A stretch of DNA of 38,560 bases. Origin: Bacteroidota bacterium. GTDB taxonomy: Bacteria > Bacteroidota > Bacteroidia > Bacteroidales > UBA932. Both the position numbers and the translations under genes were made by a program. Position 1 is the first letter of the stretch, and every line of letters starts with the position of its first letter. The stretch lies in contig JAKQLB010000189.1 in the NCBI GenBank assembly GCA_029567375.1, forward strand, positions 1 to 38,560, read 5' to 3'. The notes below the pieces were generated by a model. That model saw only the letters and a list, made by a program, of their open reading frames with translations, did not search any database and had not been told where the DNA came from. Positions 605 through 24,543 of this stretch are shown in pieces.

Positions 605-2476
605 ATGAAAGCCAAACATGCGATGCCAGTATTTCTGTTCTTTGCATTCATTCTCTTTTCAAGCTCATTGGCTCTTGCTCAGGATAAAACGGGCAGCAGG
701 TACGCACTGGTCATTGGCAATGGGAATTATACTGAGCTCAGCCATCTTCGGAATGCGAAAAATGACGCTGAAGATATGGCGGCTGCGCTGAGGGATCTAG
801 CGTTTGAAGTTACTGTGCTCCTCGACGCCAGCCAGCCTGCAATGGAAGATGCACTTGCGCAGCTTGCAGACAAGCTTGCCAGCGCGCCTGATTCGATCGG
901 ACTTTTCTATTTTGCGGGACATGGCGTACAGGCTGAGGGAGTAAACTACCTCATCCCCGCAGATTCGCGCATCCCTTCGGAAGCCTATCTGAAGACCAAG
1001 GCTTTCAGCCTGCAGAGTGTGCTTGACAGTTTTAAAAGAGCAAACAATGCCCTCAATATCGTCATTCTGGATGCATGCAGGGACAATCCATACCAATGGG
1101 CGCGGTCTGGTGCCCGGGGACTCGCCGTGATTCCTTCGCAGCCTGTCGGCAGCATAATCGTCTACGCCACCAGTGCCGGGGATGTTGCGCTTGATGGGCA
1201 GGGCAGGAATGGAGTGTTTACCGGCGAATTGCTGAAATACCTGCGGAACCCTGAGCTGGAGATCAATGAAGTCTTCAAAAGAACGGGAGCTGCGGTTCAG
1301 AAGGCGACAGGGGGAAAACAGAACCCAGCCATTTATTCTCAATACTTCGGTAATATCTATTTGGCAGCTCCTTCGCAGTTGAGACCTTCGCAGGTGGCAC
1401 TCACGCCACCGGCAGTCCAGAAGAAATATGGTACCGCGCTGGTCAGCACTGTTTCTGCAGGGTCCCTCTTCATCGACGGTATCAAGATGGAGAGCATTCG
1501 GGCAGGAGGACAGCTGGAGCTCAGCAGGCTGGAATCCGGAACGTACAGCTTTGAAATGCAATACCAGACGGGTGAAAGAGAAAGGAAACAGGTGCAGATA
1601 GATCCCGATACAAGAACATTGGTAACCTTTTCCTGGAAGCCTGAGGTAGTCATCACCAGTCCGGTGCAGAGTCCGCAGGGACAGTATCAAAAGGAAGGGG
1701 AATTGCTCGTGCTGACTATTCCAGGGTCGGAAATGCAGACGGGATTGCGGGTGCAGATCCAGATGCGGCTTATCCAGCCAGGCACCTTTCTGATGGGATC
1801 ACGGGTGGATGAACAGGATAGAGACGATGATGAAGGTCCGGTGCACGAAGTGGAAATCACAAAGCCTTTCTATATGGGCATCTATGAAGTCACCCAGGCA
1901 CAGTATGGTGCGGTAATGGGCTCAAATCCAAGCGAGTTCAAGGGAATGGATCGCCCTGTTGAAAATTTGACAAAGGCGAATATTGATGAATTCATCAAGC
2001 GGCTGAATACCATGGGGATTGGCAAATTCCGGCTTCCCACGGAAGCTGAGTGGGAGTACGCCTGCCGCGCAGGTACCCGGACTAGATTCCCCTGGGGAGA
2101 TGATCCATCCTATTCACTGCTCGATGAATATGCCTGGTGGAATGATACGGTTACTCATCCGGTGGGCCAGAAGAAACCCAACCCCTGGGGCCTGTATGAC
2201 ATGCATGGCAATGTGTGGGAGATGTGCGCTGATGGGTATGGACCTTATCCACCAGGAAGACTCGTCGATCCCATTAATATAGGGACAAGTATATATAAAG
2301 TATGCCGTGGCGGATCGGTAGAATCACCTGGCTCAAGCAGGCCTCCAAGTAAATCAAGTTATATTTCTTATAGAAAAAATATTGAGCAAGTAATTCCCCA
2401 AACCATGCGCTCTGCCAACAGAGATTATGGTGAGGGGCCGCTTGTCGGCTTTAGGCTCGTGCGGGAGGTTGATTGA
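605..2476 (+). CDS. Exported caspase-like / PEGA / FGE-fold protein
   Basis: The 623-residue protein begins with a signal peptide (residues 1-26, cleavage expected near LALA-QD), so it should act outside the cytoplasm. A peptidase C14 (caspase/metacaspase-like) domain covers about 30-255, with the dyad His106 (FAGHG) and Cys158 (LDACRDNPY). A short PEGA-like beta domain lies near 280-345. A sulfatase-modifying-factor (FGE) fold covers about 375-623, with RLPTEAEWEYACRAG, GLYDMHGNVWE and GFRLV. The C-terminal part lacks the cysteine pair of true formylglycine-generating enzymes, so that domain is probably structural or ligand-binding. GAGG at 595-598 supports the start. It is the first gene inside the island. 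Its substrate is unknown, and a role in defence is only a possibility. Confidence 0.85.
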   Translation: MKAKHAMPVFLFFAFILFSSSLALAQDKTGSRYALVIGNGNYTELSHLRNAKNDAEDMAAALRDLAFEVTVLLDASQPAMEDALAQLADKLASAPDSIGLFYFAGHGVQAEGVNYLIPADSRIPSEAYLKTKAFSLQSVLDSFKRANNALNIVILDACRDNPYQWARSGARGLAVIPSQPVGSIIVYATSAGDVALDGQGRNGVFTGELLKYLRNPELEINEVFKRTGAAVQKATGGKQNPAIYSQYFGNIYLAAPSQLRPSQVALTPPAVQKKYGTALVSTVSAGSLFIDGIKMESIRAGGQLELSRLESGTYSFEMQYQTGERERKQVQIDPDTRTLVTFSWKPEVVITSPVQSPQGQYQKEGELLVLTIPGSEMQTGLRVQIQMRLIQPGTFLMGSRVDEQDRDDDEGPVHEVEITKPFYMGIYEVTQAQYGAVMGSNPSEFKGMDRPVENLTKANIDEFIKRLNTMGIGKFRLPTEAEWEYACRAGTRTRFPWGDDPSYSLLDEYAWWNDTVTHPVGQKKPNPWGLYDMHGNVWEMCADGYGPYPPGRLVDPINIGTSIYKVCRGGSVESPGSSRPPSKSSYISYRKNIEQVIPQTMRSANRDYGEGPLVGFRLVREVD

Positions 2477-2579
2477 GGCTGAAAACATAAGCAACATAGG
2501 AATTCTATCAAGATATTAAATACTCTTTGCTTGAAAAATGTAAATCCCGTATTCCTTATAGACTTAAGAGCGCAGGTGG

Positions 2580-2638
2580 TTTTTCATTTTGTTATGAAAA
2601 ATGTAGCAAAATTATTCTTTTAGAAAGAATCGAATAAT
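2580..2638. promoter_or_regulatory. Two inverted repeats upstream of the DUF91 nuclease gene
   Basis: TTTTTCAT (2580-2587) and ATGAAAAA (2594-2601) are perfect 8-bp arms. ATTCTTT-TAG-AAAGAAT (2614-2630) is a perfect 7-bp-arm palindrome, nested in a wider ATTATTC/GAATAAT repeat (2611-2638). They sit just before the ribosome binding site of the gene at 2657. They may be operators or RNA hairpins. No cognate regulator is visible nearby. Confidence 0.4.
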
Positions 2639-2656
2639 TAGAATAGGGAAGGAAAA

Positions 2657-3817
2657 ATGAATTACAAAGCTGACCTTTTCAACAAGTTCAATGCATTTAT
2701 TGCAAACTATGCGTTTGAAGAGAAAAAGAAAATCTGGCAAGAACATTCTCAGAAATTCCATACTTTCTGGCAGAACAGAATATTGAATCACTCAGCGCCA
2801 GAATTGAATGACGAAGAAATTGACGGCATCATACGGATTCTGGACCGCAATGGAAAAGGCAACCGTCAAGGGGCCGAGTCAGTTGCCGTTGTCTGGATCT
2901 GGCAGGGTGCGTGGCGAAGATTGTTTCATCAGCTCAGAGATAACAATTCGCTTGCACTCAGCCTCAATGATGTCTTTATCGCCCGCACAGACGAAGAAAG
3001 AGCGAACGCCATCGATGAGCTCTATAAGGTAAATCAAAAGCATAAGAACAATCTGACTGGTGAAAACGGCAATGGCTTAAATGCATTACTGGTTGCCTAT
3101 GATCCATTCCATAACCTATCGATGGTTTCGCTCAAAGACCGAAAAGCGTTCATTGACTATTTCAGCGTTCCTTTCGCAGGCAACCTGGATGCAATGAGCT
3201 ATGGAAACCGAATGGTTGCTACCAACCAGGCAATCATTGCATGGTTTGAAGAATTGGGGCTTGATTACGATGCACGAACGCTCTCCATTTTCTGCTATTC
3301 CGATGCTGTGCAGCCATTATGGAAAAAGAAATCAACGGAAACAGAAACCGAAGCACAGGAAGAGACTGCCGATTTTGCTCATGAGGAGCAGGAAGGATCT
3401 GAAGAAGAGAGCCACCATTTCAGTCTTGAAAAGCAGCTTGAGGATTTTCTCATTCAGAACTGGGAGAAGACACTGCTTGGGGAAAAGTACGAGTTGCTTG
3501 AAGAGAATGGTGAGCTCGTGAGTCAGCAGTATAAAACTGATATTGGCAGGATCGATATTCTTGCCAGAGACAAGAAAGATGGGCGGTATGTCGTTGTCGA
3601 GCTCAAACTGGGCCGGGCGAGTGATGTGACCGTTGGACAGCTCACTCGCTATATGGGATGGCTGGAAGAACACAAATGCAGGGACGGCAGGTCGACGAAG
3701 GGAATTATTATCGCTGCGGAATATGATCCCAAGATATACTATTCAACTAAGAAAGTACCTGATGTGGAGGTTTTTGAATACCGACTCAAATTCGAGCTCG
3801 TACCGTATGTAAAATAA
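2657..3817 (+). CDS. DUF91 / NucS-like PD-(D/E)XK nuclease protein
   Basis: This is a 386-residue protein. The C-terminal part (about 258-386) has the endonuclease NucS / DUF91 type core: Asp300 in GRIDILA, then Glu315-x-Lys317 in VVELKLGR, then Gln328 in VGQLTRYMGWLEE, the order expected of a RecB-like PD-(D/E)XK active site. An acidic linker (about 227-255) separates it from an alpha-helical N-terminal region (1-225) that I do not recognise. GGGAAGGA lies just before the ATG. The gene is alone, convergent with the helicase operon. The N-terminal region may supply substrate recognition. A solitary nuclease in a defence island suggests restriction of foreign DNA, but no partner is seen. Confidence 0.75.
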   Translation: MNYKADLFNKFNAFIANYAFEEKKKIWQEHSQKFHTFWQNRILNHSAPELNDEEIDGIIRILDRNGKGNRQGAESVAVVWIWQGAWRRLFHQLRDNNSLALSLNDVFIARTDEERANAIDELYKVNQKHKNNLTGENGNGLNALLVAYDPFHNLSMVSLKDRKAFIDYFSVPFAGNLDAMSYGNRMVATNQAIIAWFEELGLDYDARTLSIFCYSDAVQPLWKKKSTETETEAQEETADFAHEEQEGSEEESHHFSLEKQLEDFLIQNWEKTLLGEKYELLEENGELVSQQYKTDIGRIDILARDKKDGRYVVVELKLGRASDVTVGQLTRYMGWLEEHKCRDGRSTKGIIIAAEYDPKIYYSTKKVPDVEVFEYRLKFELVPYVK

Positions 3818-3979: not shown

Positions 3980-6900
3980 TCAGTGCCATTCTGAGAGTAG
4001 TGCTTTCAAATAACGCATCACTGGACCTCTTTGAAGATATTGATGGGCGAATTGGTTTCTGTAGTTTCTCAAACACCCATAGCAGCTCGTAGCCTCATCG
4101 CAACCGCATTTGCCGCTTGTTCTAACTAATGCTGCTTCCAAACATGCCTTAAGTATGTTTTCTTTTTCCAAGTGTGCAACAAGACCTGCTCCTCCTGGTA
4201 CATTGTCATAAAGAATTATCGGAGGGATTGTATTCTGGTTACCGTACTTAACAGTAGCGTTAAGATCAGTGGAGGGTATCTCTAATACTTCAGCAGCGCC
4301 TTCTACCAAAGCATATGCAAGCGAATATGCAAACCAAATAGGATCTAGCGTTTTTTCTTCAGGGAAGCGATGGAATTGCAGCTGCAGTACATCAGTTTCA
4401 AACTCGTGGCCGAGAGAAACTTGTTCGAGTGTTCCATTGCATTCTTGCCCATAAGACGATTTATGAGACTTCAGACTCTTTTTTTGAAATCCAGCACCAC
4501 ATGTTTTGCAGATATAAAATTGCTCTTGTCGTCTTCCTTCGCACAATACTACCATTGTGCCAGGGGATGCCTTCTTAATTGTAATCACGGGAGAATAATC
4601 AGGAATATGGATTTCTTCCGGATCAACACCTAGAGAGCCTGCAAAGTAGGGACGTGTTGTGAATATCTTTGAAGTCCGAGATCTTGGTTCTTCTGGATTA
4701 CTTCGATCGGTGACGAATCCAAATCTCGGAATCACATATTCTGATACTGATAACTGATCCCCACAGGGCGTCGCGGGTTCTGGTTCACCAGGCTGCCACT
4801 GAAAGAATACATTATGCTTCCTGCATATTTTATATTTTTTTCGAGGCCATTCCTTACCGGGAATTCTTTTAAGTCCATAAGCAGTCCAAATCTTCTTATT
4901 TGCCATCAGCTTGCTTGTTGGAGCAAACTCTGAAATGGCAATACTCAGGTCTCTTTGCAACAGGACTTCTGATGTCTCCAAATTCTTTTGTGCCATTTGC
5001 GTATCCAGCTCAACAACGTCTACTGGAAAACCATATTTAGGAATCACCGCTTTTCGCGAAAGAAAGGAGAGCACATCTTCAGTTGCGATGGTCTTTGCTC
5101 GCCTATTAGCCCACTCGGCCTCTCGATAATCCCTTTCCTCCCTTGATTTCTCTTCAAGTTTAGCAATTACTCGATAGTCGTTTGATACCTCAATTTCTGC
5201 AAGAGAGAAGCGGCTTTCTTCATCTGCCAGCATGCTTATCCACTCTCCATTGTCTAGTCCCAGTCTGGCCCTCATCTTTTCCGGCACAATTGATCTAAGC
5301 GATTTTTCAAGATTCTCCTTATTCTTACTGAGATAATCATTGAAATCAGAGACTGCAGATGGGTTCTTTAAATCTACGAATAGCTTCTCTACGCTAGCAA
5401 ACCTCTCAGGAAACGCACGGAAAAAGTAAGAAAGCGCAACTGCCAGGATATGCCGGATGATAATCTTTTCGTTCTGAAGGCTCAGGATAGGGGGCCGGAC
5501 TTTTCCTCCCATAATTCGCTCTGGTTCAGAAAAATGATAGAGGTCATGCGGACTACGATGACAAAAAGTGACTGCAAATCCGGGGCACCCGCTTCGGCGG
5601 CCTGCTCGTCCTACACGCTGAGCATAATTAAATGATTCCGGCGGAACATTTCGGAGAAACACGGTATCGAGGTCGCCCAGGTCGACACCTAATTCGAAGG
5701 TTGTTGAACAGCTGAGAACATGGATGTTACCGTTTTTAAAATCTGCCTGGAATTCTCGTGCTTTTTCTTTGTCGAGCTGGGCAGTGTGTTCCTCTACACG
5801 CATTATCCCCGGCAACGTATCTTCATATAATGACCGGTAATGATTTTCTGGAAGATCGCTCAGATGGAGCGGCGTTAGTACCCCTTGGCAATTATGTCTT
5901 GGACAAAGTCCGTGAATTGAAAAGGCGTGAAGGCGTCCACACAGATTGCACTGGTAGATTGTCTCATCCTTTTTTATAAGATGAAGCCTCCACCAGTCAG
6001 GATTCAATCTTCGAGTATCTTCAATTGAAAGCAGCAAACTTTCTTTTGCTGTCGGCGCATGCTTATCACACCGGCCGATGGTTTCCCAGATTTCCCTTAA
6101 GGCGAGCTCTACATTGTCAGCACCTTCCTGCTCTGAAAGATCATCTCTGATTTTCAAAAGCAGCTTTTTCATAAATTTGAATCGTTTGCTCTGCGTGCCA
6201 TCCCAACTCCTGACATCTTTTTTATTCTTTGGATCTCCGATACGAAAACGCATTTGGATAGCTTGCAAGGAAAGATCGCTCCAATTCATTGAAACACCCG
6301 GAGATGTTCGCAATTCAACAGCCCTATCTGTTCGCATTGTGTTAAGAAGCAGGAACACAAGGTTTCGAGCTTCCTCTTCACTTAGCGACCATGGCGCTTT
6401 CATTAGAATTTCTGGTATTTTAAACCATGTAGGCCACTTGATGGACCAACGTATGAGACCGACACCTTCAAGACAGATGCGCTGTTCCTCGGTAAGAAAC
6501 TCTCGATACAAGGCGGACCAAATGTTCTTTTGAGTTGTTGGCTCATCATCTGATTGATTTCTCCTAAAGGAATCGTGGTAATTATCAAATGATCTATCAG
6601 CGATCGTGCTGAGGCTAATCCCATCTTTAGGAAAGGGATTGAAGCTTTGAGCTATTTTTAGCATTAAATTTCGAATTAGAATGTCTTTATATGAGTCCTC
6701 TAAATACCATGCGAAAAACGCAGCTTCCTGCCGTCCATCACTAAAAGCAAGTACTTTTCTTCTATGTTCTGGTAGCTTCTGGTAGAGTGTCGTTGCGATA
6801 ACCGCGTGAGGACCGTCAGTGCCATGGACAACTTCTCGCACAGGGTCTCGTCCTGCTGCGGTATATCCACATGCACTGCATTTTGCAAGTTGATCTGCAC

Positions 6901-8692
6901 GATTCTTATCTTCCAGTGAATCTTCTTTATTAACCTGGATATAATTGTTATGCCCACAGCTAGGGATATTATGCTCTGCTAAACCGCATTGAACGCAGAG
7001 ATAGAACCGAGTTTTCTTTGCATCTGGAGTGTCTTCATCGGACTCACAATTATTTTCACTATTATTTATTGGCCGCAAAAAGCTTGCGCCAAAAAGAGCA
7101 TCATTAGGATCCCGGATTGCTTCCTTAACAACTACACCGTCTTTAAAATCACTTTGGGCTACAAAGTAGTGCTGCCCGCATTCTCGACATAGGGCTATCT
7201 CAAATGCGCATCCTTCCCTTCCAACACTTTTTCGATCAAGAAAGACTCTTTTCTCAGGCCAATATGAAACAAATGCACCTTCAAGGGATCGCAAGAATAA
7301 ATGATACCTTGCTGACAAAAGCGGTGCATCAGTCGAAGGGTCTTTTGTCTGCAATAGAAGTTCAACAAGGTCGGCTAACGCCGCAATTCGCTTATCTTCT
7401 TGTAAGTCATCAAAAATCATATTTGCGATAGTAGTAATTTCAGTAGGTTTTCCAGTGATTGCCTTTCGAAGGGAAGTAACCCGCCCATCATTTTTAAGAA
7501 TTCTTCCGATTGCAGTTTTGGTATCCTCATCTTTACGAAGCGTAAGATTTAATTTCTCAGCGAGACCAAAAAGTATATTCGCACTCAGGGGAACATTATT
7601 CTGGAGAATGTTTTTGAGTAATGCATAATCCGAAAAGGATAGCCTTAGCAGGCTTGCTTCGGGAATCGGCAGCGTTTCTCCAAGAATTATATCGTGTTCA
7701 GAAAATGCTTCTCCGAATAAATCTGATGCAAACTGCGCGACTGTGGCTTTGCTGCCTTCCTGACTCACAAGCGTTGCGCTGGTCGCGATACATCGGAATG
7801 GCTCTGAGCGTCCGCCTTCACGCAGCCTTTGCTTTAGCCGGCGAAGGAGCATTGCCATTTCAGCCCCTTGCGATCCCCGGTATTGATGGGCTTCATCGAG
7901 TACAATGAATGTCCACCATCTGGCCTGGCCATTATCGAACAAGGGGCTATCATCTGGGCGGAGCAATAAATATTCTAACATTGAATAATTAGTCAGGAGG
8001 ATATTCGGTGGCGTGCATCGCATTTCAGAACGAAGCACTAATTCTCCGTGTACTATGCTTCCATTTTCATAAATTGAGTAACCTTGCTGCTCCCGTTCGT
8101 ATAAGCGGTCTTGGGCATTTCGCTGACTGTCATTCTTGTCCTCGGGAGTATCGCCGATATACTGCCCAAAAGTAAAATGAAAGGCCGCATCCTCCTCTTT
8201 AAGAATCTTACATATAGCTCCAAGACGTTCCCTTTGATCGTTTGCTAAGGCGTTCATGGGATAGAGAATCAACGCACGGACACCAGGCCCTAATTGGCCT
8301 ACCATAAATTCCTTATATAAATACAGCAAAATGGGGTAGAGAAATGATTCTGTCTTTCCACTGCCAGTACCTGTAGCAACTAATACGTTTCGTCCGCTTA
8401 AGGCCTTTTGAATCGCTTCTTCCTGATGCTGATAGAGAGGTCTATCACCATGCAATGCTTTCAGAAAACGCTCATCTGTTTCATATCCAAGGAGGACTTT
8501 GAATAATTCGCGAGGGGTCTGTCCGGGTTTAAATACTGGGGTGCCTTCAAGATACGGACCTTTGCTTAAATGTCCTAAGTCAAGAGCTTGCTCAAAAGAA
8601 TTGCGAAGGTCAGGATCCTTGAAATAAAAAGTGGTCTTTAAATAGCGGCGATACGCTTCTTCAATCTTGGAGGAAAGCTCAATTGGATTCAT
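3980..8692 (-). CDS. Large DEAH helicase with DUF1998 / MrfA-type zinc-binding C-terminus
   Basis: This 1570-residue superfamily 2 helicase has Walker A ATGTGSGKTE (Lys113), DEAH at 266-269, SAT in IATSATLVS, and motif VI QRVGRAGRRSG. Several CxxC pairs in the middle suggest zinc-binding insertions. The C-terminus carries the DUF1998/MZB cysteine cluster (CGCDEATSCYGCLRNYRNQ, near 1525-1545), as in MrfA (YprA), DrmA of DISARM and DruE of Druantia. It probably translocates along DNA. The start overlaps the 3' end of the uS9-fusion gene by 14 bp, so the two are translationally coupled and likely work together. No DISARM methyltransferase or recognised Dru partner is present, so I do not assign a named system. 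Confidence 0.85.
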   Translation of the reverse strand: MNPIELSSKIEEAYRRYLKTTFYFKDPDLRNSFEQALDLGHLSKGPYLEGTPVFKPGQTPRELFKVLLGYETDERFLKALHGDRPLYQHQEEAIQKALSGRNVLVATGTGSGKTESFLYPILLYLYKEFMVGQLGPGVRALILYPMNALANDQRERLGAICKILKEEDAAFHFTFGQYIGDTPEDKNDSQRNAQDRLYEREQQGYSIYENGSIVHGELVLRSEMRCTPPNILLTNYSMLEYLLLRPDDSPLFDNGQARWWTFIVLDEAHQYRGSQGAEMAMLLRRLKQRLREGGRSEPFRCIATSATLVSQEGSKATVAQFASDLFGEAFSEHDIILGETLPIPEASLLRLSFSDYALLKNILQNNVPLSANILFGLAEKLNLTLRKDEDTKTAIGRILKNDGRVTSLRKAITGKPTEITTIANMIFDDLQEDKRIAALADLVELLLQTKDPSTDAPLLSARYHLFLRSLEGAFVSYWPEKRVFLDRKSVGREGCAFEIALCRECGQHYFVAQSDFKDGVVVKEAIRDPNDALFGASFLRPINNSENNCESDEDTPDAKKTRFYLCVQCGLAEHNIPSCGHNNYIQVNKEDSLEDKNRADQLAKCSACGYTAAGRDPVREVVHGTDGPHAVIATTLYQKLPEHRRKVLAFSDGRQEAAFFAWYLEDSYKDILIRNLMLKIAQSFNPFPKDGISLSTIADRSFDNYHDSFRRNQSDDEPTTQKNIWSALYREFLTEEQRICLEGVGLIRWSIKWPTWFKIPEILMKAPWSLSEEEARNLVFLLLNTMRTDRAVELRTSPGVSMNWSDLSLQAIQMRFRIGDPKNKKDVRSWDGTQSKRFKFMKKLLLKIRDDLSEQEGADNVELALREIWETIGRCDKHAPTAKESLLLSIEDTRRLNPDWWRLHLIKKDETIYQCNLCGRLHAFSIHGLCPRHNCQGVLTPLHLSDLPENHYRSLYEDTLPGIMRVEEHTAQLDKEKAREFQADFKNGNIHVLSCSTTFELGVDLGDLDTVFLRNVPPESFNYAQRVGRAGRRSGCPGFAVTFCHRSPHDLYHFSEPERIMGGKVRPPILSLQNEKIIIRHILAVALSYFFRAFPERFASVEKLFVDLKNPSAVSDFNDYLSKNKENLEKSLRSIVPEKMRARLGLDNGEWISMLADEESRFSLAEIEVSNDYRVIAKLEEKSREERDYREAEWANRRAKTIATEDVLSFLSRKAVIPKYGFPVDVVELDTQMAQKNLETSEVLLQRDLSIAISEFAPTSKLMANKKIWTAYGLKRIPGKEWPRKKYKICRKHNVFFQWQPGEPEPATPCGDQLSVSEYVIPRFGFVTDRSNPEEPRSRTSKIFTTRPYFAGSLGVDPEEIHIPDYSPVITIKKASPGTMVVLCEGRRQEQFYICKTCGAGFQKKSLKSHKSSYGQECNGTLEQVSLGHEFETDVLQLQFHRFPEEKTLDPIWFAYSLAYALVEGAAEVLEIPSTDLNATVKYGNQNTIPPIILYDNVPGGAGLVAHLEKENILKACLEAALVRTSGKCGCDEATSCYGCLRNYRNQFAHQYLQRGPVMRYLKALLSEWH

Positions 8693-10886
8693 CTTTTCGT
8701 TCTCCTATCATGTTCGCTTCTTTTACTTTGATTCCACCAAAACCAGCATTCCTTAATACCACCCTCAACCTCGGATTATAACTGATAAGCGCGCGTGAAA
8801 TGGCATGTGCGGCTGCTTTTACTTGGCGGCTTGCTCTAGGATCGCTTCCCTTAATAGTGATATGCACGTCAAACCCTGAGAGTATTTCATGCACTTCATG
8901 CATAGTAAGCAGCCGTTCTAGAAATCGCCTACCAGAGGATGCAGTACGCCTAAAATAGTCATCTAAGAGTAAATCATTGACTATTATTTCATTCTTTCCA
9001 GGACGCAATACAGCTTTAGCATACGCATTTTTCTTTCTACCTAACCCCATCCAAAATTGATTGGGCGTTCGTGATGTGGATTTAACAGCAGATTTGTGTT
9101 CTGCAGGTCTTTGTGAGAGTTGTAGATTAGCCAGAATACCCTCAATTTCTTGATTCCTTCGATTTATGTAAATTCTTAGACAGTGTGATTGTGATCGATC
9201 ATCAAGTTCCTTATAGTCACAATAATCGCGGAGAGGAATGGCAATTGTATTCTCGGTAACTTTAACTCCGTAAGGGCGAGCATTAGCCCTTTCAAAGCCC
9301 ACCAACACTTTATCAATCCATCGGCATTTTGGAAGACGCAGCCATAATGCTTTGTTGGATGTCGCTTTGAAATCCTTATTTGAAAGCATGATTGGATGAT
9401 CATGCCATTCGGAAGGTTGACTGTATTCGTCTGCTACGGACCACCAAATTCTCTCGATGAGTATGGCTATTTCTACGGGATGCCCATTTTTTGATCGCAC
9501 GAGAAAGCGAAGCCTGTCACACGAAGGATCAGGAGGAACTGTCGCAATCGTTTTTTCACTAAGGTGCTCAATATTAATGCTTTCTTTCAAACGAATTGTG
9601 CAACCAGCCTCGTGAATAAACTGCACATTCACTTCTCTGTATCCGTCTTTAGAAGGCAAAGGTTGTGGATCAGGAAGAATTATTTCTTTCAGATCGCTAA
9701 TGAATCTAAAATCATAGCTGTCGATTAGATCATCATTGCTGTCATAGAATCTAAGAAAATACCATCCACTCTTTCTTTCGATCAGATTCGTTAACAAGTT
9801 CTGCGTGGATTGACCCGGATTGGGGATGTATTCTTTTCTCCATTTCTTTCGTCCAGTACCTTCTTCACCGACAATGATTGTCTTAACATTTTCCCATGCG
9901 CTTGTATCTAAAGTTTTGATTAAAGGTGGATATTGAATAAATAGAGGCCCTATATTATCGCTTGCATCTTCAATATGATTCCCAATCAATTCAAAGATTG
10001 GAACTTTTGAAGCAATAACCTTGGGTCCTAAATCTGGAGTTGTAAAGGCGATCTTGCTCTCTCCGCTCTTCTGAATGTAAAAGAAATGAGCCGTATATCC
10101 TTCGAATATTACAGGTTCAGGAGTTACAGGTGGAAACCCTGACAATGTTACATCACGTTCCCAGGTATCAGGTACAATCACAAGGTATGCCCCTGATGAA
10201 ACCGACTCTACCAATCTTCCATTTTTAAGATCCGAGCCAATTAATTTGAAAAGAAGGTATCCATCGTGTCCAATCTGAGTCTTGGTTTTTTGTTCGGTTT
10301 CATTACTGTTCCAGAAAGCCTCCAATTCACCGGATATTTGAGCTAAAGGCCAACAGAATTCTTTTCTTTCATCCTTCGAAAGAACAATACCATTCTGAAG
10401 GATTCTGAAATCAGATTTTTCTGAAAGTTCCTCTGGTACTTCTACTGCAATTATCCATTGGCATTCTTGCTTATAGCAGATTATTTCGGGTTTTAAGCTG
10501 CGATGTCTTTTAGTACGCCCTCGACTTCTATTAGGATCAGAGCTTGAGGAACGAGATCTGCCTCCTCTTTGGATCGGTTTTAGCCTAACTCTATCATTCT
10601 GTGGCGTGATAAAAGTCCCGCATAATTCTTGTTCTTCATCAGTGCTGCACTTGTTCTCTACCTCTGGTGGCCCAATAAAAGTACCGAACAGCTCTGCCTC
10701 ATTCTCTTCATTCTGCTCTTGTTTTTGTTCTTCTGTTTGAGGTTTTTCCTTCGCTACTGGTTCTTGGTTATGATTTTTTTTGTGGCCATGAACAATATGG
10801 TAAGTTACTGCTATTGTGGCTGAGCCTGACAAGAGCACGAGCAATAGGCTGATGAAAGAATCCATCCGTTTCCTCGCTATTTTCAT
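8679..10886 (-). CDS. Membrane-anchored protein with C-terminal ribosomal uS9-like domain
   Basis: This is a 735-residue protein. Residues 9-32 form one hydrophobic segment, followed by a Gln/Glu/Lys-rich stretch containing two copies of a motif of the form L-x-GTFI-x-P and an Arg/Ser-rich basic patch. Residues about 130-600 look like beta-rich modules I cannot name. Residues 611-716 align with ribosomal protein S9 (uS9): GLGRKK at the start, RPG, IIVN, LLLDDYF, then FDVHITIKGS, ISRAL, LRVVLRNAGF. The basic C-terminal tail of real S9, which reaches the ribosomal P site, is missing. The gene is the first of a two-gene operon with the DUF1998 helicase. It is not the housekeeping rpsI: there is no rplM neighbour, and the domain is a minor part of a large protein. 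Function is unknown. The S5-domain-2-like fold could bind nucleic acid or the helicase. Confidence 0.8.
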   Translation of the reverse strand: MKIARKRMDSFISLLLVLLSGSATIAVTYHIVHGHKKNHNQEPVAKEKPQTEEQKQEQNEENEAELFGTFIGPPEVENKCSTDEEQELCGTFITPQNDRVRLKPIQRGGRSRSSSSDPNRSRGRTKRHRSLKPEIICYKQECQWIIAVEVPEELSEKSDFRILQNGIVLSKDERKEFCWPLAQISGELEAFWNSNETEQKTKTQIGHDGYLLFKLIGSDLKNGRLVESVSSGAYLVIVPDTWERDVTLSGFPPVTPEPVIFEGYTAHFFYIQKSGESKIAFTTPDLGPKVIASKVPIFELIGNHIEDASDNIGPLFIQYPPLIKTLDTSAWENVKTIIVGEEGTGRKKWRKEYIPNPGQSTQNLLTNLIERKSGWYFLRFYDSNDDLIDSYDFRFISDLKEIILPDPQPLPSKDGYREVNVQFIHEAGCTIRLKESINIEHLSEKTIATVPPDPSCDRLRFLVRSKNGHPVEIAILIERIWWSVADEYSQPSEWHDHPIMLSNKDFKATSNKALWLRLPKCRWIDKVLVGFERANARPYGVKVTENTIAIPLRDYCDYKELDDRSQSHCLRIYINRRNQEIEGILANLQLSQRPAEHKSAVKSTSRTPNQFWMGLGRKKNAYAKAVLRPGKNEIIVNDLLLDDYFRRTASSGRRFLERLLTMHEVHEILSGFDVHITIKGSDPRASRQVKAAAHAISRALISYNPRLRVVLRNAGFGGIKVKEANMIGERKDESN

Positions 10887-11241: not shown

Positions 11242-11751
11242 ATGGCTGTACTCGATGAATTCATTGAGCTTCGTATCCTGGTTGCGGCTCTTGGTGAAAA
11301 ACCTAATGCCGGCTGGTGGGAGAGCTCCTTTCTTGGGGAGATTGGGGTACGATATCTCTCTTATGCGTTCCCGCGAGCTCCAGAACTCGCAGCGATCCAA
11401 GGTGCTGTTGAAGCTGCTCGCAGAGTCCATGATGCCCGGATTGGCACTAAGGGTGTCACCCATCTGTTCCGACAGTCATACGAGGTCGAACTGCTTATTC
11501 TCGACCATCTAAAATCAAATATTGATGCAATACGGAACCGTATGGCCTCAGTGTATTCAAAGCCTGCAGCATGCAAATCTGCGCTCGAAGCCATTGCGGG
11601 CTCACCAGAATTGGGCCATGAAGGACCGGTTCTGATCGGGTCTCTACCGGGGCTTCCTGATACTGAAGGTATCAGGCGTATGGCCGCCATTTACCTCGGC
11701 GCAATAAATAGCGGCAAAGTTGCATTGCCGTATTTTCTGAGTACACCATGA
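11242..11751 (+). CDS. brxE: BREX protein BrxE
   Basis: A 169-residue protein with the features I associate with BrxE of type 6 BREX: an N-terminal LRILVAALGEK followed by a Gly-Trp-Trp stretch, and the signature VHDARIG...THLFRQ. Its biochemical role is not established. It is the first gene of the operon, with TGAAAGG at 11226-11232 as ribosome binding site. The stop overlaps the next start (ATGA). Its presence together with brxL, instead of the brxD/brxHI pair normally paired with BrxE, makes this operon a hybrid. The family assignment rests on recalled motifs. Confidence 0.7.
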   Translation: MAVLDEFIELRILVAALGEKPNAGWWESSFLGEIGVRYLSYAFPRAPELAAIQGAVEAARRVHDARIGTKGVTHLFRQSYEVELLILDHLKSNIDAIRNRMASVYSKPAACKSALEAIAGSPELGHEGPVLIGSLPGLPDTEGIRRMAAIYLGAINSGKVALPYFLSTP

Positions 11752-12539
11752 GCAAAGGTACTACCCTCTATTCGACTGAGCTCATCAAAGCGGCAGGTAT
11801 GGTATCTGAGTCGATTGAGCTCCTTCGTATCTGGACCCCCGGTATGCGCCCTTCTGAATTGCGAGATGCTGCTCTCCGGGCTGGAACACTCGCAAAGGTG
11901 AGTTCGGATCGAGTCTGGGCTATCACCCGATATGGCTTTAGTTTACGATACCTTGCAGACGAACAGCGACCTGCACAGATTCTAAAGCGGCTGGTTGAAC
12001 ATGGAGCTTCCGTGCCTCTTCTCAGGCAGCTGTTTTTGCTCTACACCGCACGCAGCAATAGCCTTTTTGCAGATATAGCCGGCGAGTATTATTGGCAGCT
12101 CAACGCCCGCGGAATCAAAGAGCTTTCAAAAGCGATGATTGAAAAATTTATCAGGTCCAAGTTCGGCTCAGAAAAAGTGCCTCATGCATGGTCAGATAGT
12201 GTTACCGACCGGGTTGCATCGGGACTAATGAAAACTCTTTCTGATTTTGGGTATATCGCCCCAGGGCGGGGGAAGCTGCGTTCGATGACACCCCCTGCCA
12301 TTCTGCCAGAGACAATCTGTTTCATTGCCTATGAAGCACGTGAACGCAAGGTCCCCGATTCTCTCGTTGCTGCGGATCCGGCTTTTGCTCTCTTTGGCCT
12401 GAGCCATCAGAAGGCACTTGAAGAGCTCATCCATGTCTCAGGGCAGTATGGGCTTATCGTGCAGTCTGCAGGCGATCTGGTGCGTATCTCCTATAAGTAT
12501 CAAACCATGGAGGACTTTCTCGATGCCCTCGTGCGATGA
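11748..12539 (+). CDS. brxA: BREX protein BrxA (DUF1819)
   Basis: A 263-residue DUF1819 family protein. BrxA is a small DNA-binding protein of the BREX core. The N-terminal helical region with LRIWTPGMRPSELRDAAL and the middle segment with PLLRQLFLLYTARSNSLFADIAGEYYW fit the family, as do length and position. The ATG overlaps the brxE stop, giving tight coupling. Its own 3' end overlaps the brxB start by 17 bp. No anomaly is visible. Confidence 0.85.
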   Translation: MSKGTTLYSTELIKAAGMVSESIELLRIWTPGMRPSELRDAALRAGTLAKVSSDRVWAITRYGFSLRYLADEQRPAQILKRLVEHGASVPLLRQLFLLYTARSNSLFADIAGEYYWQLNARGIKELSKAMIEKFIRSKFGSEKVPHAWSDSVTDRVASGLMKTLSDFGYIAPGRGKLRSMTPPAILPETICFIAYEARERKVPDSLVAADPAFALFGLSHQKALEELIHVSGQYGLIVQSAGDLVRISYKYQTMEDFLDALVR

Positions 12540-13107
12540 ACTTTTCAATGAGCTCTTGATTCGTCTGAAAACGATTGACCGATACAATATTATGGGCGGA
12601 GAGCCCATATACTACCTTGTCTTTCCTGTTGAGCAGATGCTGGAGATGAAACGAAGCCTCAAAGTGCTCGTGTCTCGCCTTATGCTCGATGGATGGTCTC
12701 CTTCCGTGCTTTCTCTTGCTGAGGTAGTCAATGCAATCTTCAGGTCTGATCCAGACCGGCAGATACTTTTGGAATCGGAGAAGGCCTACCTGGAGGATGG
12801 AGACTTTGCTGCTATCAATGAAAGCCTGCGGAGTATCCTGCTGGGCACAGGGGCGGATAAGGTAACTGCAAGAATTCTGAAAGAGCTGGAATCCTTACAG
12901 GAAAAGAAAGGCAGCATCCTTATCATTGCCGATGTTGAAGCATTACATCCCTATCTGCGAATTGGAGCCATCGAACAGCGGCTTCAGGGGCGTTGCCCTG
13001 TACCTGTCGTCATATTCTATCCTGGAAACCGAACTGGCAATTCCACGCTGCAGTTTCTAGGGATTTGGCCTGAAGATGGCAACTATCGTTCGACTCATAT
13101 CGGTTGA
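12523..13107 (+). CDS. brxB: BREX protein BrxB (DUF1788)
   Basis: A 194-residue DUF1788 protein, part of the BREX core of unknown exact role. The open frame extends upstream to 12418, but that part only overlaps brxA. The ATG at 12523 has GGAGG at 12509-12513 with 9-bp spacing, and gives MPSCDELFNELLIRL, typical of the family start. The C-terminal ILIIADVEALHPYLRIGAIEQRL and VVIFYPGNR match the DUF1788 pattern. It lies between brxA and brxC as in types 1 and 6. Confidence 0.85.
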   Translation: MPSCDELFNELLIRLKTIDRYNIMGGEPIYYLVFPVEQMLEMKRSLKVLVSRLMLDGWSPSVLSLAEVVNAIFRSDPDRQILLESEKAYLEDGDFAAINESLRSILLGTGADKVTARILKELESLQEKKGSILIIADVEALHPYLRIGAIEQRLQGRCPVPVVIFYPGNRTGNSTLQFLGIWPEDGNYRSTHIG

Positions 13108-13118
13108 GGAGCACAGAT

Positions 13119-16100
13119 ATGGCAAGCAAGATTCGAGCGTTGTTTGACCCAGCAAAACCTATCGACCGGCGCATTGAGAAGGTTATCAACTATGAACTTG
13201 TTGGAGAGGACCAGCTCAAGGCTGAAGTCACCGAATACGTCGTCACGGAGAGCATTGAGGAGCATTTTCTGAGGCTTCTCGATATCATGGATCAGTCGAT
13301 GTCAGGCGATGCCGTGACAGATACCTCGGTCTGGGTATCCGGATTCTATGGATCAGGAAAAAGCTCCTTCACCAAGTATCTTGGATTTGCTCTTGATCCT
13401 TCAAAGAAAATCGGTGACAGGGCATTTCTCGATTACCTTGTAGACCAATTCTCCAGGCAGGCGACGAAACAGAAGCTGAGAACAGTCGCAAGGAAGCATC
13501 CGCTTACCGTCATCATGATCGACCTTGCTAGCAATCAACTCTCAGGAGCCGGCCTGGCGGATATCTCGAGCGTACTCTACTGGCATGTCATGCAATGGGC
13601 AGGCTATTCCAGAGACCGCAAGATCGCCTACCTTGAGTTCATGCTCGAGCGCGATGGGAAACGGGAAGCGTTCGAGAAGCGGTTCTCAGAGCTTTCCGGC
13701 GGCAGGAGCTGGGCTGAAGTCCAGTCGAATCTTCTCGTAGCTCAAACATACGCTTCCAAACTCGCCAGCGAGTTCTATCCCGAAATCTGGGCAGATCCAT
13801 CAGAATTTTCCAGGGTGAAACTTGATGAAGCCAGTTTTGAAGAGCAGCGTATCAAGGAAATGCTCGAAATCATCAAGCGACGATCAGGGACAGACAAGGT
13901 CGTGTTCATCGTTGACGAAGTGGGACAATACATTTCCGGACGCGATGAGCTCATCCTCAATCTCGATGGTCTTGCAAAGAATATAAAGAACATAGGCAGG
14001 GGCAAGGCATGGATTATCGCCACTGCGCAACAGACCCTCACGGAGGACAACCCACAATCCCAGATCAATTCTCCCAAGCTTTTCAAGCTCAAGGACCGAT
14101 TCCCCATAAGCATTGACCTGGAAGCAAGCGATATCCGCACGATCTGCCATCGTCGGCTCCTTTCCAAATCACCCGCGGCCCGAGAGGAGCTGGAGAAGCT
14201 TTTTGATCAGTATGGCCAGCGAATGATTCATGCAACCAGGCTCACCCAGACAAGAGTCATCACTTCCACCCTGGACAGAGAATCCTTTCTCGATCTCTAT
14301 CCGTTCCTTCCTCACCATTTGGACCTTCTTCTTTTGCTCTTGGGAAGGCTCGCGAAGACATCAGGTGGTGTAGGGCTGCGTTCCGCAATAAAGGTAGTCC
14401 AGGATGTGCTGGTCGAATCCGCCATCCCTGGAGGGTCTCCGCTTGCGGATGCTCCTGTCGGAACTCTTGCCAACGCTGTTATTTTCTATGATTGCCTCAG
14501 AAAGGACATCCAACGCTCGTTCCCCTACATCGTACAAGGCGTAGAAAAGGCAGTTGCCGCTTTTGGTGCTGATTCGCTACCTGGGAGGCTTGCGAAAGCC
14601 ATTGGTGTGCTTCAGGTGATAGAGGATTTCCCTCTCACTGCTGAGAATGCGGCAGCTCTGATGGTGCCTTCCGTAGACTCAGAGCCTCTTTTCGAAGCGG
14701 TGCGCCAGGCAGCAAAAGAGCTTCTCCATGATCCTCTCATCCCTCTTGCAGAGGTTGATGGCCGCCTGCGTTTCATGAGCCCTGTGGTGGATGACCTCAA
14801 TAAGAAACGGCAGACCATGCAACCAAGCTCCAGCGAATTGAGGGACGTCTTTGTACTTGCGCTTCGCGACCTCTTTACTCCAAAGCCTACTGCGCGAACC
14901 GCATCAGGGAAAACGGTGGCGTGCGGCATCAAGTGGGCAGATGGTGCAGGCTGGTTTCCCGTCCAGGATGATGCCGAGGAAATTCAGCTCCATCTCATGC
15001 TCCAGCCGGAAGAAGCGCATCAAGCGGAGCTGGCAAGCATTGTTGAAAAGTCCCGCACCCCGGAATGCAGCAAGGCAATTTTCCTTGTCGCTCCTGAAGA
15101 TGAGCAGCTTGTGCATCTTGCAGTGGAGTACTGGAGAAGCAAGAAAATCTACGATTTTGAACATGCCCGCGCCCTCGACAAGGAAGTGGTTGGATACCTT
15201 AACGGACAGCGCACCAAGGCTCAGAATACATTCACCGAGCTGATACAACGTCTCAGGCAGAGTTTCTTGAAAGGCTCCTTCGTCTTCAGAGGACAACCGG
15301 TAGGGGTGGCAACCTTCTCCCATGATCTCATGCCGGCACTGCGAGAAGAGCTCGGTCGCTCGGGAGAAGATGTCTATTGCAAGTTCAAGGATGCTGCGGT
15401 ACAGGCAGAGAGCTCTGCTGCAGAAGGATTCCTGAGAACACAGAATTTGAATGCCATTGCAGGTAAAAACGATCCCTTGAATCTTGTCGATAGAAATAGC
15501 AGCAGCGGGACCATTAAAAAGGATCATCTTGCGTTCAGGGATATTTCCGACTATCTCGAACGTCGTGGTCTTGTCGAGGGCAAGAAGCTTCTGGATGATT
15601 TTGCCCAGGCACCCTACGGATGGTTCAAGGATACGACTCGATACATCGTGGCTGCCATGCTGGCGGCAGGCATCGTAAAGCTGCGCGTCAGTGGCACTGA
15701 GTTCAGCACCCCTGTTCCACAGGCGATTGAAGCCCTGAAAGGGCTTCAGCAATTCAACAAGATCGGCATCATGCTGCGGGGGAATCCTCCGCCGATCGAG
15801 CTTTTGCTTGCCACCGCAGACCGGTTGCTGATACTTACCGGGAAACAGGTCCCTCCGCTTGAACGTGATATTGCGGCAGTGGTGCGGGATACCTTCCCCG
15901 ATTTCCAGAATAGTTATGCCTCCTTGTCGGCGCGGCTTTCTGCGCTCGAGCTGGCTGGTGCAGAACGTGCCGAAGGGCTGTGCGAACGCATATCTGAATT
16001 GCTGCGAGGCGATGCATCCGATGCTCCCTACCGCCTAGGACCTCCTGACAGCGCATTATTCAGAGACCTGTGCTGGGCTCGCGATACGGTGAGGGCATTG

Positions 16101-16736
16101 AAAGAAGGTGCGGGATCTCTTGCAGAACGAGCGACGACTCTCCTTGCAGCCATCAGAGATCTTCCGCAGGATGAAGGTCCTCTCGAAGAGCTGAAAGCGA
16201 GGACAAGCCATCTGCGTGAGGAACTATCGGCAGAATTACAGCGAGAAGACTGGCATGCACGTATTGTGGAAATCAATCAGAGAGTCTCTGCCCTTGAATC
16301 TGAAGTGACAACGACCTTCCATATCTTCGTTTCCGAATGCAATGATTACGGGAAAAAGCGGTGGCATGAGATCGAAGCAAGTGCAGATTTCAATGACCTG
16401 AGCGCAGAGGAACGTGAGAGCTTTGCAGCTGAGAGACCCGTGGTTGAGATACCTGACACTACCACTATTGCTGGACTCGAAAAGCTGTATAAGCAGAAAT
16501 ATTCTCTAGCCGCGCGCTATGACAAGCTCACGGCAATGATTGCTGCTCGTGCGGAGGAAATCCGCAATGCCAGACAATCCAATGGACCAGACAATGGAGA
16601 GCCCGAGATACGAGAATATCGCCTTCGCATCCCCCGTGGAATTGTTAGGAGCTCTTCCGATCTCGATGAACTCCTGCAGATCCTCGAGAATGCCCGCCTT
16701 GCAATTGCGCAAGGCAAGACTGTCATCATTGAATAA
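13119..16736 (+). CDS. brxC: BREX ATPase BrxC
   Basis: A 1205-residue P-loop ATPase, the large motor/scaffold protein of BREX. Walker A GFYGSGKS is at 75-82 (Lys81) and Walker B VVFIVDEVGQY has Asp266-Glu267. The family start (IRALFDPAKPIDRRIEKVI) is clear from the ATG at 13119, which has GAGGAG upstream (13106-13111). An in-frame ATG five codons earlier is less well placed. The C-terminal part is rich in coiled-coil sequence (about 1010-1170). Length and order are normal for BREX types 1 and 6. BrxC is needed for both methylation and phage exclusion in studied systems. Confidence 0.9.
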   Translation: MASKIRALFDPAKPIDRRIEKVINYELVGEDQLKAEVTEYVVTESIEEHFLRLLDIMDQSMSGDAVTDTSVWVSGFYGSGKSSFTKYLGFALDPSKKIGDRAFLDYLVDQFSRQATKQKLRTVARKHPLTVIMIDLASNQLSGAGLADISSVLYWHVMQWAGYSRDRKIAYLEFMLERDGKREAFEKRFSELSGGRSWAEVQSNLLVAQTYASKLASEFYPEIWADPSEFSRVKLDEASFEEQRIKEMLEIIKRRSGTDKVVFIVDEVGQYISGRDELILNLDGLAKNIKNIGRGKAWIIATAQQTLTEDNPQSQINSPKLFKLKDRFPISIDLEASDIRTICHRRLLSKSPAAREELEKLFDQYGQRMIHATRLTQTRVITSTLDRESFLDLYPFLPHHLDLLLLLLGRLAKTSGGVGLRSAIKVVQDVLVESAIPGGSPLADAPVGTLANAVIFYDCLRKDIQRSFPYIVQGVEKAVAAFGADSLPGRLAKAIGVLQVIEDFPLTAENAAALMVPSVDSEPLFEAVRQAAKELLHDPLIPLAEVDGRLRFMSPVVDDLNKKRQTMQPSSSELRDVFVLALRDLFTPKPTARTASGKTVACGIKWADGAGWFPVQDDAEEIQLHLMLQPEEAHQAELASIVEKSRTPECSKAIFLVAPEDEQLVHLAVEYWRSKKIYDFEHARALDKEVVGYLNGQRTKAQNTFTELIQRLRQSFLKGSFVFRGQPVGVATFSHDLMPALREELGRSGEDVYCKFKDAAVQAESSAAEGFLRTQNLNAIAGKNDPLNLVDRNSSSGTIKKDHLAFRDISDYLERRGLVEGKKLLDDFAQAPYGWFKDTTRYIVAAMLAAGIVKLRVSGTEFSTPVPQAIEALKGLQQFNKIGIMLRGNPPPIELLLATADRLLILTGKQVPPLERDIAAVVRDTFPDFQNSYASLSARLSALELAGAERAEGLCERISELLRGDASDAPYRLGPPDSALFRDLCWARDTVRALKEGAGSLAERATTLLAAIRDLPQDEGPLEELKARTSHLREELSAELQREDWHARIVEINQRVSALESEVTTTFHIFVSECNDYGKKRWHEIEASADFNDLSAEERESFAAERPVVEIPDTTTIAGLEKLYKQKYSLAARYDKLTAMIAARAEEIRNARQSNGPDNGEPEIREYRLRIPRGIVRSSSDLDELLQILENARLAIAQGKTVIIE

Positions 16737-16750
16737 AAAAGGCGGTTTCA

Positions 16751-18745
16751 ATGGCGATTGGCAAGGATGACCGGAGAAGAATCGAAAAGCTTGTAGGCGA
16801 TTGCCGTGCACTGCTTGAGGCCGAATTTGGCGCACAATTCCAAACGATTTTTGGGATCGGCCTGGATGGCAGCATTGCAGACATGAATACCCTTGGGCAC
16901 CTTTCCGATAATGAGCAGAGAATTGCCCTGGCGCTGCGTCAGGAGCTCTTACACTACGCCGAAGGAAAGGCTGAGAAGAAAGCTCTGGCTGCAGCGACTG
17001 AGAAGCTCCTGCGCGAGATCGCGTTCACAACACTCAATCGATTTGCAGCCCTCAAGCTCTGCGAGAGAAGGGAATTTCTCTTCGAGTCGATAGGTTCTGG
17101 CTACAGCTCGCGAGGCTTTGAACTCTACTGCAGGCTCGCAGGCCCCTCCTTGGGAGAGAGCTACCAGCGATATGTATGCTACCTTGAGAGCGTCTTTGAC
17201 GAGCTCTCTCTGGACCTCGGTGCCCTCTTCGATAGAAGAGCTCCCGGGGCAATTCTCTTCCCAAGAGAAAAGGCGCTCCTTGCGCTTCTTGAGTTTCTCA
17301 ATGATGCATCGCTCAATCATCTCTGGGCTGAAGATGAGACCATTGGCTGGATGTACCAGTACTTCAACTCGAAAGACGAACGCCGTGAGATGCGCGCTGA
17401 ATCGGGCGGAGCTCCGCGGAACAGCCGGGAGCTTGCGGTACGCAATCAGTTTTTCACGCCCCGGTATGTGGTTCGTTTCCTCGTAGACAACAGCCTTGGA
17501 CGGCTGTGGTATGAGATGACAAGAGGAGAGACGGGCCTTTCCGATATGTGCACCTTGCTGGTTAGAAAGCCTCATGTCAGGTTCCTCGCAAAAGATGAGA
17601 AAGCCCCTGCTTCAGAGGATGAAAACACTGACTATCATCCCTATCGTGCATTGAAAGATCCCCGTGAGATACGAATGCTGGACCCCGCCTGTGGTTCAAT
17701 GCATTTCGGGCTCTATGCCTTTGATCTGTATGAAGTGATGTATCGCGAAGCATGGGACCGGTCTCCGGAGTGTTTCTCCGATCTTCGTGCTGCAGGCATG
17801 AGCCGGGATGAATTTCTCAAGCGCATCCCTGCAATGGTTATTGAGCACAATATCCATGGCATCGATATTGACCGGCGATGTACGCAGATTGCTGCCCTTT
17901 CTCTCTGGCTCCGGGCTCAAAGGAGCTGGAAAGAAGCTGCGATTCCTGCTGCCAGCCGACCGAAAATCTTAAAGAGCAATATCGCATGTGCGGAGCCAAT
18001 GCCGGGAGAAGCTACATTTCTGGAAGAGTATGCGGCATCCTTGAAACCATCGCTGCTCGGTGATTTCGTGAAAGCTGTCTGGCAAGACATGCGCCTGGCG
18101 GGCGAGGCGGGCAGCCTTTTGAAAATTGATGACACGATCCAGTCAGCTCTTAAGAAGGCGAAGACTGCATGGGACGTGTGGACCAAGGACATTCAAAAAA
18201 GATCGCTGGCAGGATTGTTTGAAGATCGTTCAAGCGATGATTTCAAGGCAATGCTCGGGTATGACATACGGGAAATAAAAGACGTATCAGAATGGGAAGG
18301 AATGGAATTAAAGCTGCTTTCAGCTCTCAAGGGTTTTGCTGAAGCTGCGCAGACGGTCAATGGTACCGGCAAACGGCTCTTTGCGGATGATGCTGCAGCA
18401 GGTTTTGCGTTCATCGATCTCTGCAGGAAATGCTATGATGTGGTGCTCATGAACCCGCCTTTTGGAGAAGCAGCTGCAGGATCAAAGCAATACATAGCGG
18501 ATGAATATGAACGATCAAAAAATGACCTGGCTTCGGCCTTCATCGAGATGGGGCTGAAACGACTGGAAAGACGTGGGTATCTCGGCGCAATAACTACTCG
18601 AACCATATTCTTCCTCTCAAGCCACACCAGGTTCAGAGAGGAAATCGTACTCAAGGAGGCAAAGCCCGTGGTATTTGCCGATCTCGGTTTCGGGGTGCTC
18701 GATGCGATGGTGGAAACGGCGGCATATGTGCTCGAGAAGGTATGA
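16751..18745 (+). CDS. pglX: BREX methyltransferase PglX, N-terminal (catalytic) part
   Basis: A 664-residue ORF carrying the full catalytic half of PglX, the N6-adenine methyltransferase of BREX. Motif I (SAM binding) is DPACGS at 311-316 and motif IV is NPPF at 568-571. The reading frame ends with TGA right after AAYVLEKV, where an undivided PglX would continue straight into the ...FFRLL... segment that here starts at 19933. The target-recognition half is a separate downstream ORF in another frame, with two genes between them. The N-terminal part starts 14 bp after brxC. The clean end suggests either a functional two-subunit enzyme or an insertion that inactivated it. Confidence 0.9.
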   Translation: MAIGKDDRRRIEKLVGDCRALLEAEFGAQFQTIFGIGLDGSIADMNTLGHLSDNEQRIALALRQELLHYAEGKAEKKALAAATEKLLREIAFTTLNRFAALKLCERREFLFESIGSGYSSRGFELYCRLAGPSLGESYQRYVCYLESVFDELSLDLGALFDRRAPGAILFPREKALLALLEFLNDASLNHLWAEDETIGWMYQYFNSKDERREMRAESGGAPRNSRELAVRNQFFTPRYVVRFLVDNSLGRLWYEMTRGETGLSDMCTLLVRKPHVRFLAKDEKAPASEDENTDYHPYRALKDPREIRMLDPACGSMHFGLYAFDLYEVMYREAWDRSPECFSDLRAAGMSRDEFLKRIPAMVIEHNIHGIDIDRRCTQIAALSLWLRAQRSWKEAAIPAASRPKILKSNIACAEPMPGEATFLEEYAASLKPSLLGDFVKAVWQDMRLAGEAGSLLKIDDTIQSALKKAKTAWDVWTKDIQKRSLAGLFEDRSSDDFKAMLGYDIREIKDVSEWEGMELKLLSALKGFAEAAQTVNGTGKRLFADDAAAGFAFIDLCRKCYDVVLMNPPFGEAAAGSKQYIADEYERSKNDLASAFIEMGLKRLERRGYLGAITTRTIFFLSSHTRFREEIVLKEAKPVVFADLGFGVLDAMVETAAYVLEKV

Positions 18746-24541: not shown

Positions 24542-24543
24542 GC

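Follow-up and report, generated by a model that had tools for sequence, protein, structure and literature searches.

A DruE-like helicase is paired with an Ig-like partner protein that carries interchangeable C-terminal modules, one of them a tail-less homologue of ribosomal protein uS9

The window, by which we mean the whole stretch of 38,560 nucleotides of a Bacteroidota bacterium that was analysed (contig JAKQLB010000189.1), carries a gene for a 735-amino-acid protein (8679..10886, minus strand), homologues of whose body lie upstream of DruE elsewhere, followed by a gene for a DruE-like SF2 helicase of the YprA family (1570 amino acids, 3980..8692, minus strand). The two ORFs overlap by 14 bp (8679-8692), which agrees with the coupling to a helicase gene described in an earlier sequence-only reading of this DNA. 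The 735-residue protein, called the partner here, belongs to a family of its own that consists of a membrane helix, a linker, an RGGR[PS]R motif, a body of tandem Ig-like domains and a C-terminal module. The module of the window partner is a true uS9 homologue without the tail and, beyond what the earlier reading had proposed, the conserved partner family bears several kinds of interchangeable module, uS9 being just one. We give an even chance to the explanation that the pair is a distinct Druantia-like antiphage system in which the partner is a membrane-tethered sensor or recruiter whose interchangeable module, probably one that recognises nucleic acid, passes the target to DruE.

The uS9 module occupies residues 611-716 (8739..9056, minus strand) and was identified by Pfam, NCBIfam, a sequence search of the PDB, and a structural model examined with Foldseek. 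Residues 616-716 matched Pfam Ribosomal_S9 with an E-value of 7.2e-14 and 52.7 bits (cut-off 22.5) over profile positions 1-94 of 121, and phmmer against PDB chains matched the module to uS9 at 3.7e-14. The NCBIfam 30S S9 model matched the partner with an E-value of 7e-16 and 58.6 bits, which is under the equivalog cut-off of 112, and therefore the module is a uS9 homologue and not a ribosomal S9. The AlphaFold2 model of the partner, made with a 20-row family alignment, had a mean pLDDT of 78 with block means of 86-94 over residues 611-710, and when the whole model was compared to the PDB with Foldseek the best 50 of 178 matches (E <=0.001) were all in ribosome entries, as judged from the entry titles without chain names; the bacterial chains among the listed matches gave 99-131 residues at 26-35% identity. 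The likeness to uS9 seen earlier over 611-716 is thus confirmed by profile and by predicted fold, no unrelated fold was obtained, and the other option of a generic S5-domain-2-like fold gives way to the specific uS9 homology shown by the sequence profiles. Compared to uS9 (rpsI), the module is alike in sequence and fold over positions 1-94 of the 121-position profile but differs in being fused to a 600-residue protein and in having lost the canonical C-terminal tail. The lack of this basic tail, pointed out before for the window, holds for all five uS9 modules compared. In all five the GRKK loop is retained, as are the conserved Q..A positions, and 23 of 34 highly conserved canonical uS9 columns are not kept in all of them.

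The genome of the window has a separate full-length rpsI on another contig (C46). When 296 genomes of the phylum were searched for S9, at least four (G000, G172, G299 and G347) had two S9 matches, and in G000 and G172 the second match lies inside long frames of 739 and 786 amino acids, respectively. The proposal to look for the same fusion in other helicase operons was fruitful, as the uS9 fusion is present in five genomes of four phyla, the hosts being two Bacteroidota, WOR-3, Chloroflexota and Methanophagales. An assembly artefact or chance was rejected on account of these five occurrences and of E-values that are far from chance, and the view that the window uS9 duplicates the rpsI of its host was rejected because the module groups with the other uS9 modules and not with L001. 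No viral carrier was found in IMG/VR with two peptide patterns. In a search for plasmid carriers 38 records matched, and the 20 that were listed cover only the S9 stretch and are rpsI or unannotated there.

At its N-terminus the partner has a hydrophobic segment at residues 10-28 (10803..10859, minus strand; Kyte-Doolittle maximum 1.99), in keeping with the membrane segment recognised in the sequence-only reading. Such a segment, at a Kyte-Doolittle value of at least 1.9, is present in 22 of 30 family proteins, and among the eight that do not have it are two whose sequence starts within the body and one for which we set the start. Where the helix is clear (22 proteins), 19 show a positive-inside pattern, which predicts a cytosolic body, and the window partner is one of the three exceptions (N-flank +3, C-flank +1). 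The helix is followed by a charged and probably disordered linker at residues 36-128 (10503..10781, minus strand; pLDDT <50), within which is the basic motif RGGRSR at residues 107-112 (10551..10568, minus strand), and this motif in its family form RGGR[PS]R is present in 24 of the 31 family proteins listed. The beta body, residues 104-578 (9153..10577, minus strand), was delimited from alignment A3, the models and Foldseek. Its Foldseek matches, at low TM-scores, were tandem proteins of the Ig-like and similar kinds, and hence the predicted fold class is credible and no specific relative can be named; a PDB sequence search with the body found no relatives. In the model of an L13e-bearing member (L054) the body folds as in the window protein and the module is poorly predicted, with a pLDDT of about 30-57. 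No nuclease domain was recognised in the partner or in DruE.

The best PADLOC family for the helicase was DruE1 with an E-value of 1e-186, and the next family was DpdJ with 6e-25. Its Pfam domains are DEAD, Helicase_C and MZB (PF09369), which we take to be the former DUF1998, so that the defence-type DUF1998 helicase named earlier is now seen to be DruE-like. Walker A, DEAH and motif VI were found in it by pattern. In the window DruE no nuclease domain was detected with Pfam at an E-value of 1, and the protein ends 29 residues past MZB. In a tree of 28 helicases, 21 DruE proteins of the partner-linked kind formed a clade with 100/100 support, apart from the helicase of genome G266 and from six plasmid-borne references. 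These six were presumed from their gene neighbours to represent Druantia I, II, III and ARMADA; several have long branches, their own order is unsure, and the presumed ARMADA references branch apart from the 21-member clade. In 19 out of 19 comparisons with the window, DruE was more conserved than the body of the partner.

When 395 genomes of the phylum were searched with the helicase, eight, including that of the window, had matches at 1e-60, and the partner was found in three of the seven others. In these three, G172, G138 and G149, the identity of DruE to that of the window is 67%, 54% and 52%, respectively, and a partner homologue lies just upstream in each. The proteins upstream of DruE in G266 and G489 had no phmmer match to the partner, and hhalign detected no homology between the body and the upstream protein of G266 or two cyanobacterial upstream proteins, these being weak comparisons with single sequences. 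An alignment of four bodies led to 24 loci in genome_contigs, unlike a scan with the single partner protein by which nothing was found there. The hosts of these loci include bins of Phycisphaerae, Bacteroidetes KatS3mg041, WOR-3, Treponema, Firmicutes, Aminicenantes, Methanophagales, Anaerolineales, Thermodesulfobacteriota and Planctomycetota; the KatS3mg041 locus was taken as the same locus as that of G172, and L036 is the same locus as L044. Since many of the hosts are metagenome-assembled genomes (MAGs), their assignments may be wrong, that of the archaeal one above all. DruE is directly downstream of the partner on the same strand in 20 of the 24 loci, with overlapping ORFs in 11 of these 20 and gaps of 5-30 bp in the other nine. 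Three loci (L043, L048 and L063) are cut by contig ends before DruE, and the remaining one, L066 (the same as L083), holds a 90-amino-acid remnant of the body with no DruE within 18.5 kb. The partner is also upstream of DruE in L037, L038 and L115, the last being a further member from the phylum of G494, and in the Chloroflexota loci L078, L079, L081 and L082, as well as in L080 where it is in two overlapping ORFs. Partner and DruE make up a two-gene unit, and the PglX of the window is part of a divergent BREX operon. Counting the centre genome each time, the body was found in 7 of 350, 3 of 247, 1 of 246 and 2 of 130 genomes in four phyla. The sequence of L043 breaks off at the 3' end, those of L053 and L057 start within the body, and the start of L058 was set by us inside a longer frame. 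Some genes are broken into at least two ORFs at differing places, namely DruE in L046, L049 and L057 and the partner in L065, and this is due to either sequencing error or decay. Two distant body homologues in opposite orientation, in frames of 1312-1513 amino acids, were seen in each of G1036 (contig C1) and G1020 (contig C16). The neighbours of six relatives include GmrSD-like, type I R-M, methyltransferase, TIR, PDC-S06 and type ISP enzyme genes; for this check ten proteins were chosen by eye, and eight of them, one weakly, had a PADLOC match at 1e-5.

The C-terminal modules of 31 proteins, which are the 28 rows of the body tree with L065 and L080 (zinc fingers) and L115 (L13e) added, were of the uS9 kind in five (the window, L044, L045, L056 and L057), L13e in six (L050, L051, L052, L054, L055 and L115), zinc-finger clusters in 14, basic helical in five (L043, L047, L048, L049 and L037) and of another kind in one (L059); these numbers include the near-duplicates L054/L055, L050/L052, L047/L048/L049 and L038/L062. 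Pfam found uS9 in five and L13e in four of 25 members of alignment A2 that were scanned whole, and L13e in the isolated modules of L050, L051 and L054, and L115 was assigned from its sequence and not by profile. The L13e match was significant with the whole protein (E 1.3e-9), with the module alone (3.1e-11) and with the PDB (4.6e-9), and the similarity to eL13 spans about 60 residues and reaches the segment before the GKGFS motif; the family module, in its bacterial hosts, corresponds to the middle segment of eL13 only. No other L13e was matched in the genomes of the four bacterial L13e carriers, which are MAGs and possibly incomplete. In the phylum of G495, of which 198 genomes were searched, L13e was matched only in G495 and by a free-standing protein; the latter is a basic protein of 72 amino acids (L112:1438-1656) of the bacterial genome G1356, and it is possibly a relative of the source of the L13e module. 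The zinc-finger calls rest on spaced C and H residues and weak Pfam matches, and that of L065 was made by eye; three C/H clusters were present in nine and two in four of the 13 proteins tested, and none of three such modules scanned alone exceeded a Pfam zinc-finger cut-off. The basic helical module had no PDB match. All 15 uS9, L13e and helical modules for which net charge was computed are basic (+8 to +29), and the 28 bodies range from -23 to +3.

In a tree of 24 uS9 rows the five modules formed one clade with 100/100 support that includes none of the five hosts' rpsI and lies among bacterial uS9 at 87/91, which is not a firm node; 13 rpsI rows of the window's own order and family were omitted and the bootstrap had not settled. 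The module from the archaeal bin groups with the bacterial-type modules. The bodies that bear uS9 are not a clade, as forcing them into one costs 265 lnL units (AU p 0.00064). The modules are one clade and their bodies are not, and so modules have moved between backbones, which would mean either that two or more backbones received a uS9 that had been captured once or that backbones exchanged tips. When module labels were placed on the body tree there were seven changes, compared to a minimum of four and a mean of 14.5 for shuffled labels. In this tree, 11 of 25 inner branches are weak; it has 28 rows without L063, whose module is lost at the contig end, and L065 and L080, which are in pieces, and the last 155 residues of four Chloroflexota proteins were removed to drop the module. 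Both trees, that of DruE (100/99) and that of the bodies (100/100), make L056, a uS9 carrier, sister to L060, a zinc-finger carrier.

The type-specific partner genes of Druantia types I, II and III are DruABCD, DruMFG and DruH. None of these was matched among the nine window proteins scanned by PADLOC, and the window partner had no PADLOC match at 0.1. The body was also compared to one protein of the STY4851/ECs_5259 family, which we take to be DruH (YjiT family), and hhalign gave a Prob of 0.2, a single sequence being a weak comparison. In the parts considered of the paper on Druantia III, DruE is described as a helicase-nuclease that engages ssDNA-containing intermediates, DruH as a likely sensor with Ig-like domains that diverges faster than DruE (PMC13192584), and in those of another the DruE of type III as bearing a C-terminal PLD nuclease (PMC12458937). 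By these accounts the window pair is like Druantia type III (DruH-DruE) in having two genes, of which one encodes a dedicated DruE partner that contains Ig-like domains and diverges faster than DruE, but it differs in that no nuclease domain was recognised in the pair, in contrast to the nuclease activity of the published DruH, and in that its DruE is without the C-terminal PLD nuclease. By description it also resembles a branch of Druantia that Bell et al. (PMC12458937) call type III-like or III-B, the helicases of which are mostly without a C-terminal nuclease, but a partner of the window kind is not described in the parts of that paper examined. The words ribosomal, uS9 and transmembrane are absent from the main text of PMC12458937 and the DruH papers by term search. 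A search of openly readable papers, mostly titles and the beginnings of abstracts, gave no link of uS9 or L13e to Druantia, and the earlier remark that no described defence system has a uS9 domain agrees with its outcome. In the portion of the literature covered, this DruE-centred system, its partner family and the habit of swapping modules are undescribed.

The analysis shows which domains are present and how they are arranged, that the partner is linked to DruE and diverges faster than it, and that modules have been swapped; defence, a nucleic-acid ligand, handover to DruE and the topology, which we infer, are brought together in the following explanation. The Ig-like scaffold, cytosolic and tethered to the membrane, would carry an exchangeable recognition tip, which in the window is a captive tail-less bacterial uS9, and by its membrane helix the system would be held at the site of DNA entry. 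Close to the membrane the tip would bind some feature of the invader's nucleic acid or nucleoprotein, the scaffold would hand this target to the co-encoded DruE, and DruE would move along or unwind the DNA so that replication is blocked, either by helicase or translocation action alone or by way of another nuclease. That the block may need no nuclease of its own is suggested by the fact that no nuclease domain was recognised in the pair, and the assignment of the body as scaffold and the module as tip is drawn by analogy to DruH as a likely Ig-domain sensor. Proteins of the uS9, eL13 and zinc-finger families usually bind nucleic acid. This, together with the net positive charge of the modules, is why nucleic acid is favoured as the ligand, although it is not proof. 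The family gives DruE-type helicases another kind of dedicated partner, in which the tip changes and the scaffold and helicase stay; the choice of target by Druantia-type systems becomes testable by tip swaps, and a probable immune receptor is seen to be built in part from domains of ribosomal proteins. Several observations weigh against it, however: Ig-like and S5-domain-2 folds are equally able to bind protein, the zinc-finger matches are weak as seen above, neither protein of the pair has a recognised nuclease domain by which DNA would be disabled, the window partner breaks the positive-inside pattern, and the L066 remnant has no DruE.

That two kinds of module are homologous to ribosomal proteins, and that the GRKK loop and Q..A positions persist in the uS9 modules, would also be expected if the module poses as a part of the ribosome and phage ribosome-targeting factors or products of ribosome breakdown trigger the helicase, but we consider such a mimic or integrated decoy unlikely. 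The L13e module can hardly imitate the host ribosome because no other L13e was found in the four bacterial genomes, which may be incomplete; moreover, uS9 has lost its tail, the same place is taken in other members by zinc-finger clusters or a helical domain, and the module of an archaeal bin is of the bacterial type. The mimicry and translation-sensing ideas of the sequence-only reading are weakened by the L13e result and by the zinc-finger carriers, and a mimic or decoy, possible as it is, is less likely than a module for nucleic-acid recognition. By a related analogy, with the integrated decoys of plant immune receptors, one could propose a family of bacterial immune receptors that has more than once recruited domains of ribosomal proteins (uS9 and L13e-like) as exchangeable bait or sensor tips, traded across phyla and possibly across domains of life, and this proposal is likewise improbable.

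The close pairing with DruE, down to the overlap of the ORFs in the window and in 11 of 20 loci, is what a purely structural or DruE-docking module without any role in recognition would lead one to expect. We hold this to be a rather slim possibility, because the sister DruE proteins of L056 and L060 have partners with different modules, and therefore DruE does not dictate the module. Slimmer still is the chance that the pair has a housekeeping role, in DNA repair or otherwise, in place of one in defence. YprA/MrfA helicases include repair enzymes, as stated in the parts of PMC12458937 considered, but the spread of the body in the four phyla is patchy, defence genes are nearby, and DruE profiles are far ahead of those of other helicase families.

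The window has other genes around the pair. Divergent from the partner gene is a BREX operon (11242-26631) with BrxE, BrxA, BrxB, BrxC, PglX, PglZ and BrxL, in which BrxL has a C-terminal PLD-like MIT_C domain and PglX is in two ORFs (16751-18745 and 19909-22035) that have between them two ORFs without a Pfam match (18765-19061 and 19052-19933). A tyrosine integrase gene adjoins tRNA-Met at the window edge (37114-38476) and an IS21-type pair is at 33625-35903, and because of these three features the defence cluster of the window may be an integrated island. On the other side, at 605-3817, a caspase-like domain fused to an FGE-sulfatase domain is followed by a PD-(D/E)xK nuclease gene that converges on DruE, and the product of the latter is NucS_C/YhcG-like and corresponds to PADLOC PDC-S02.
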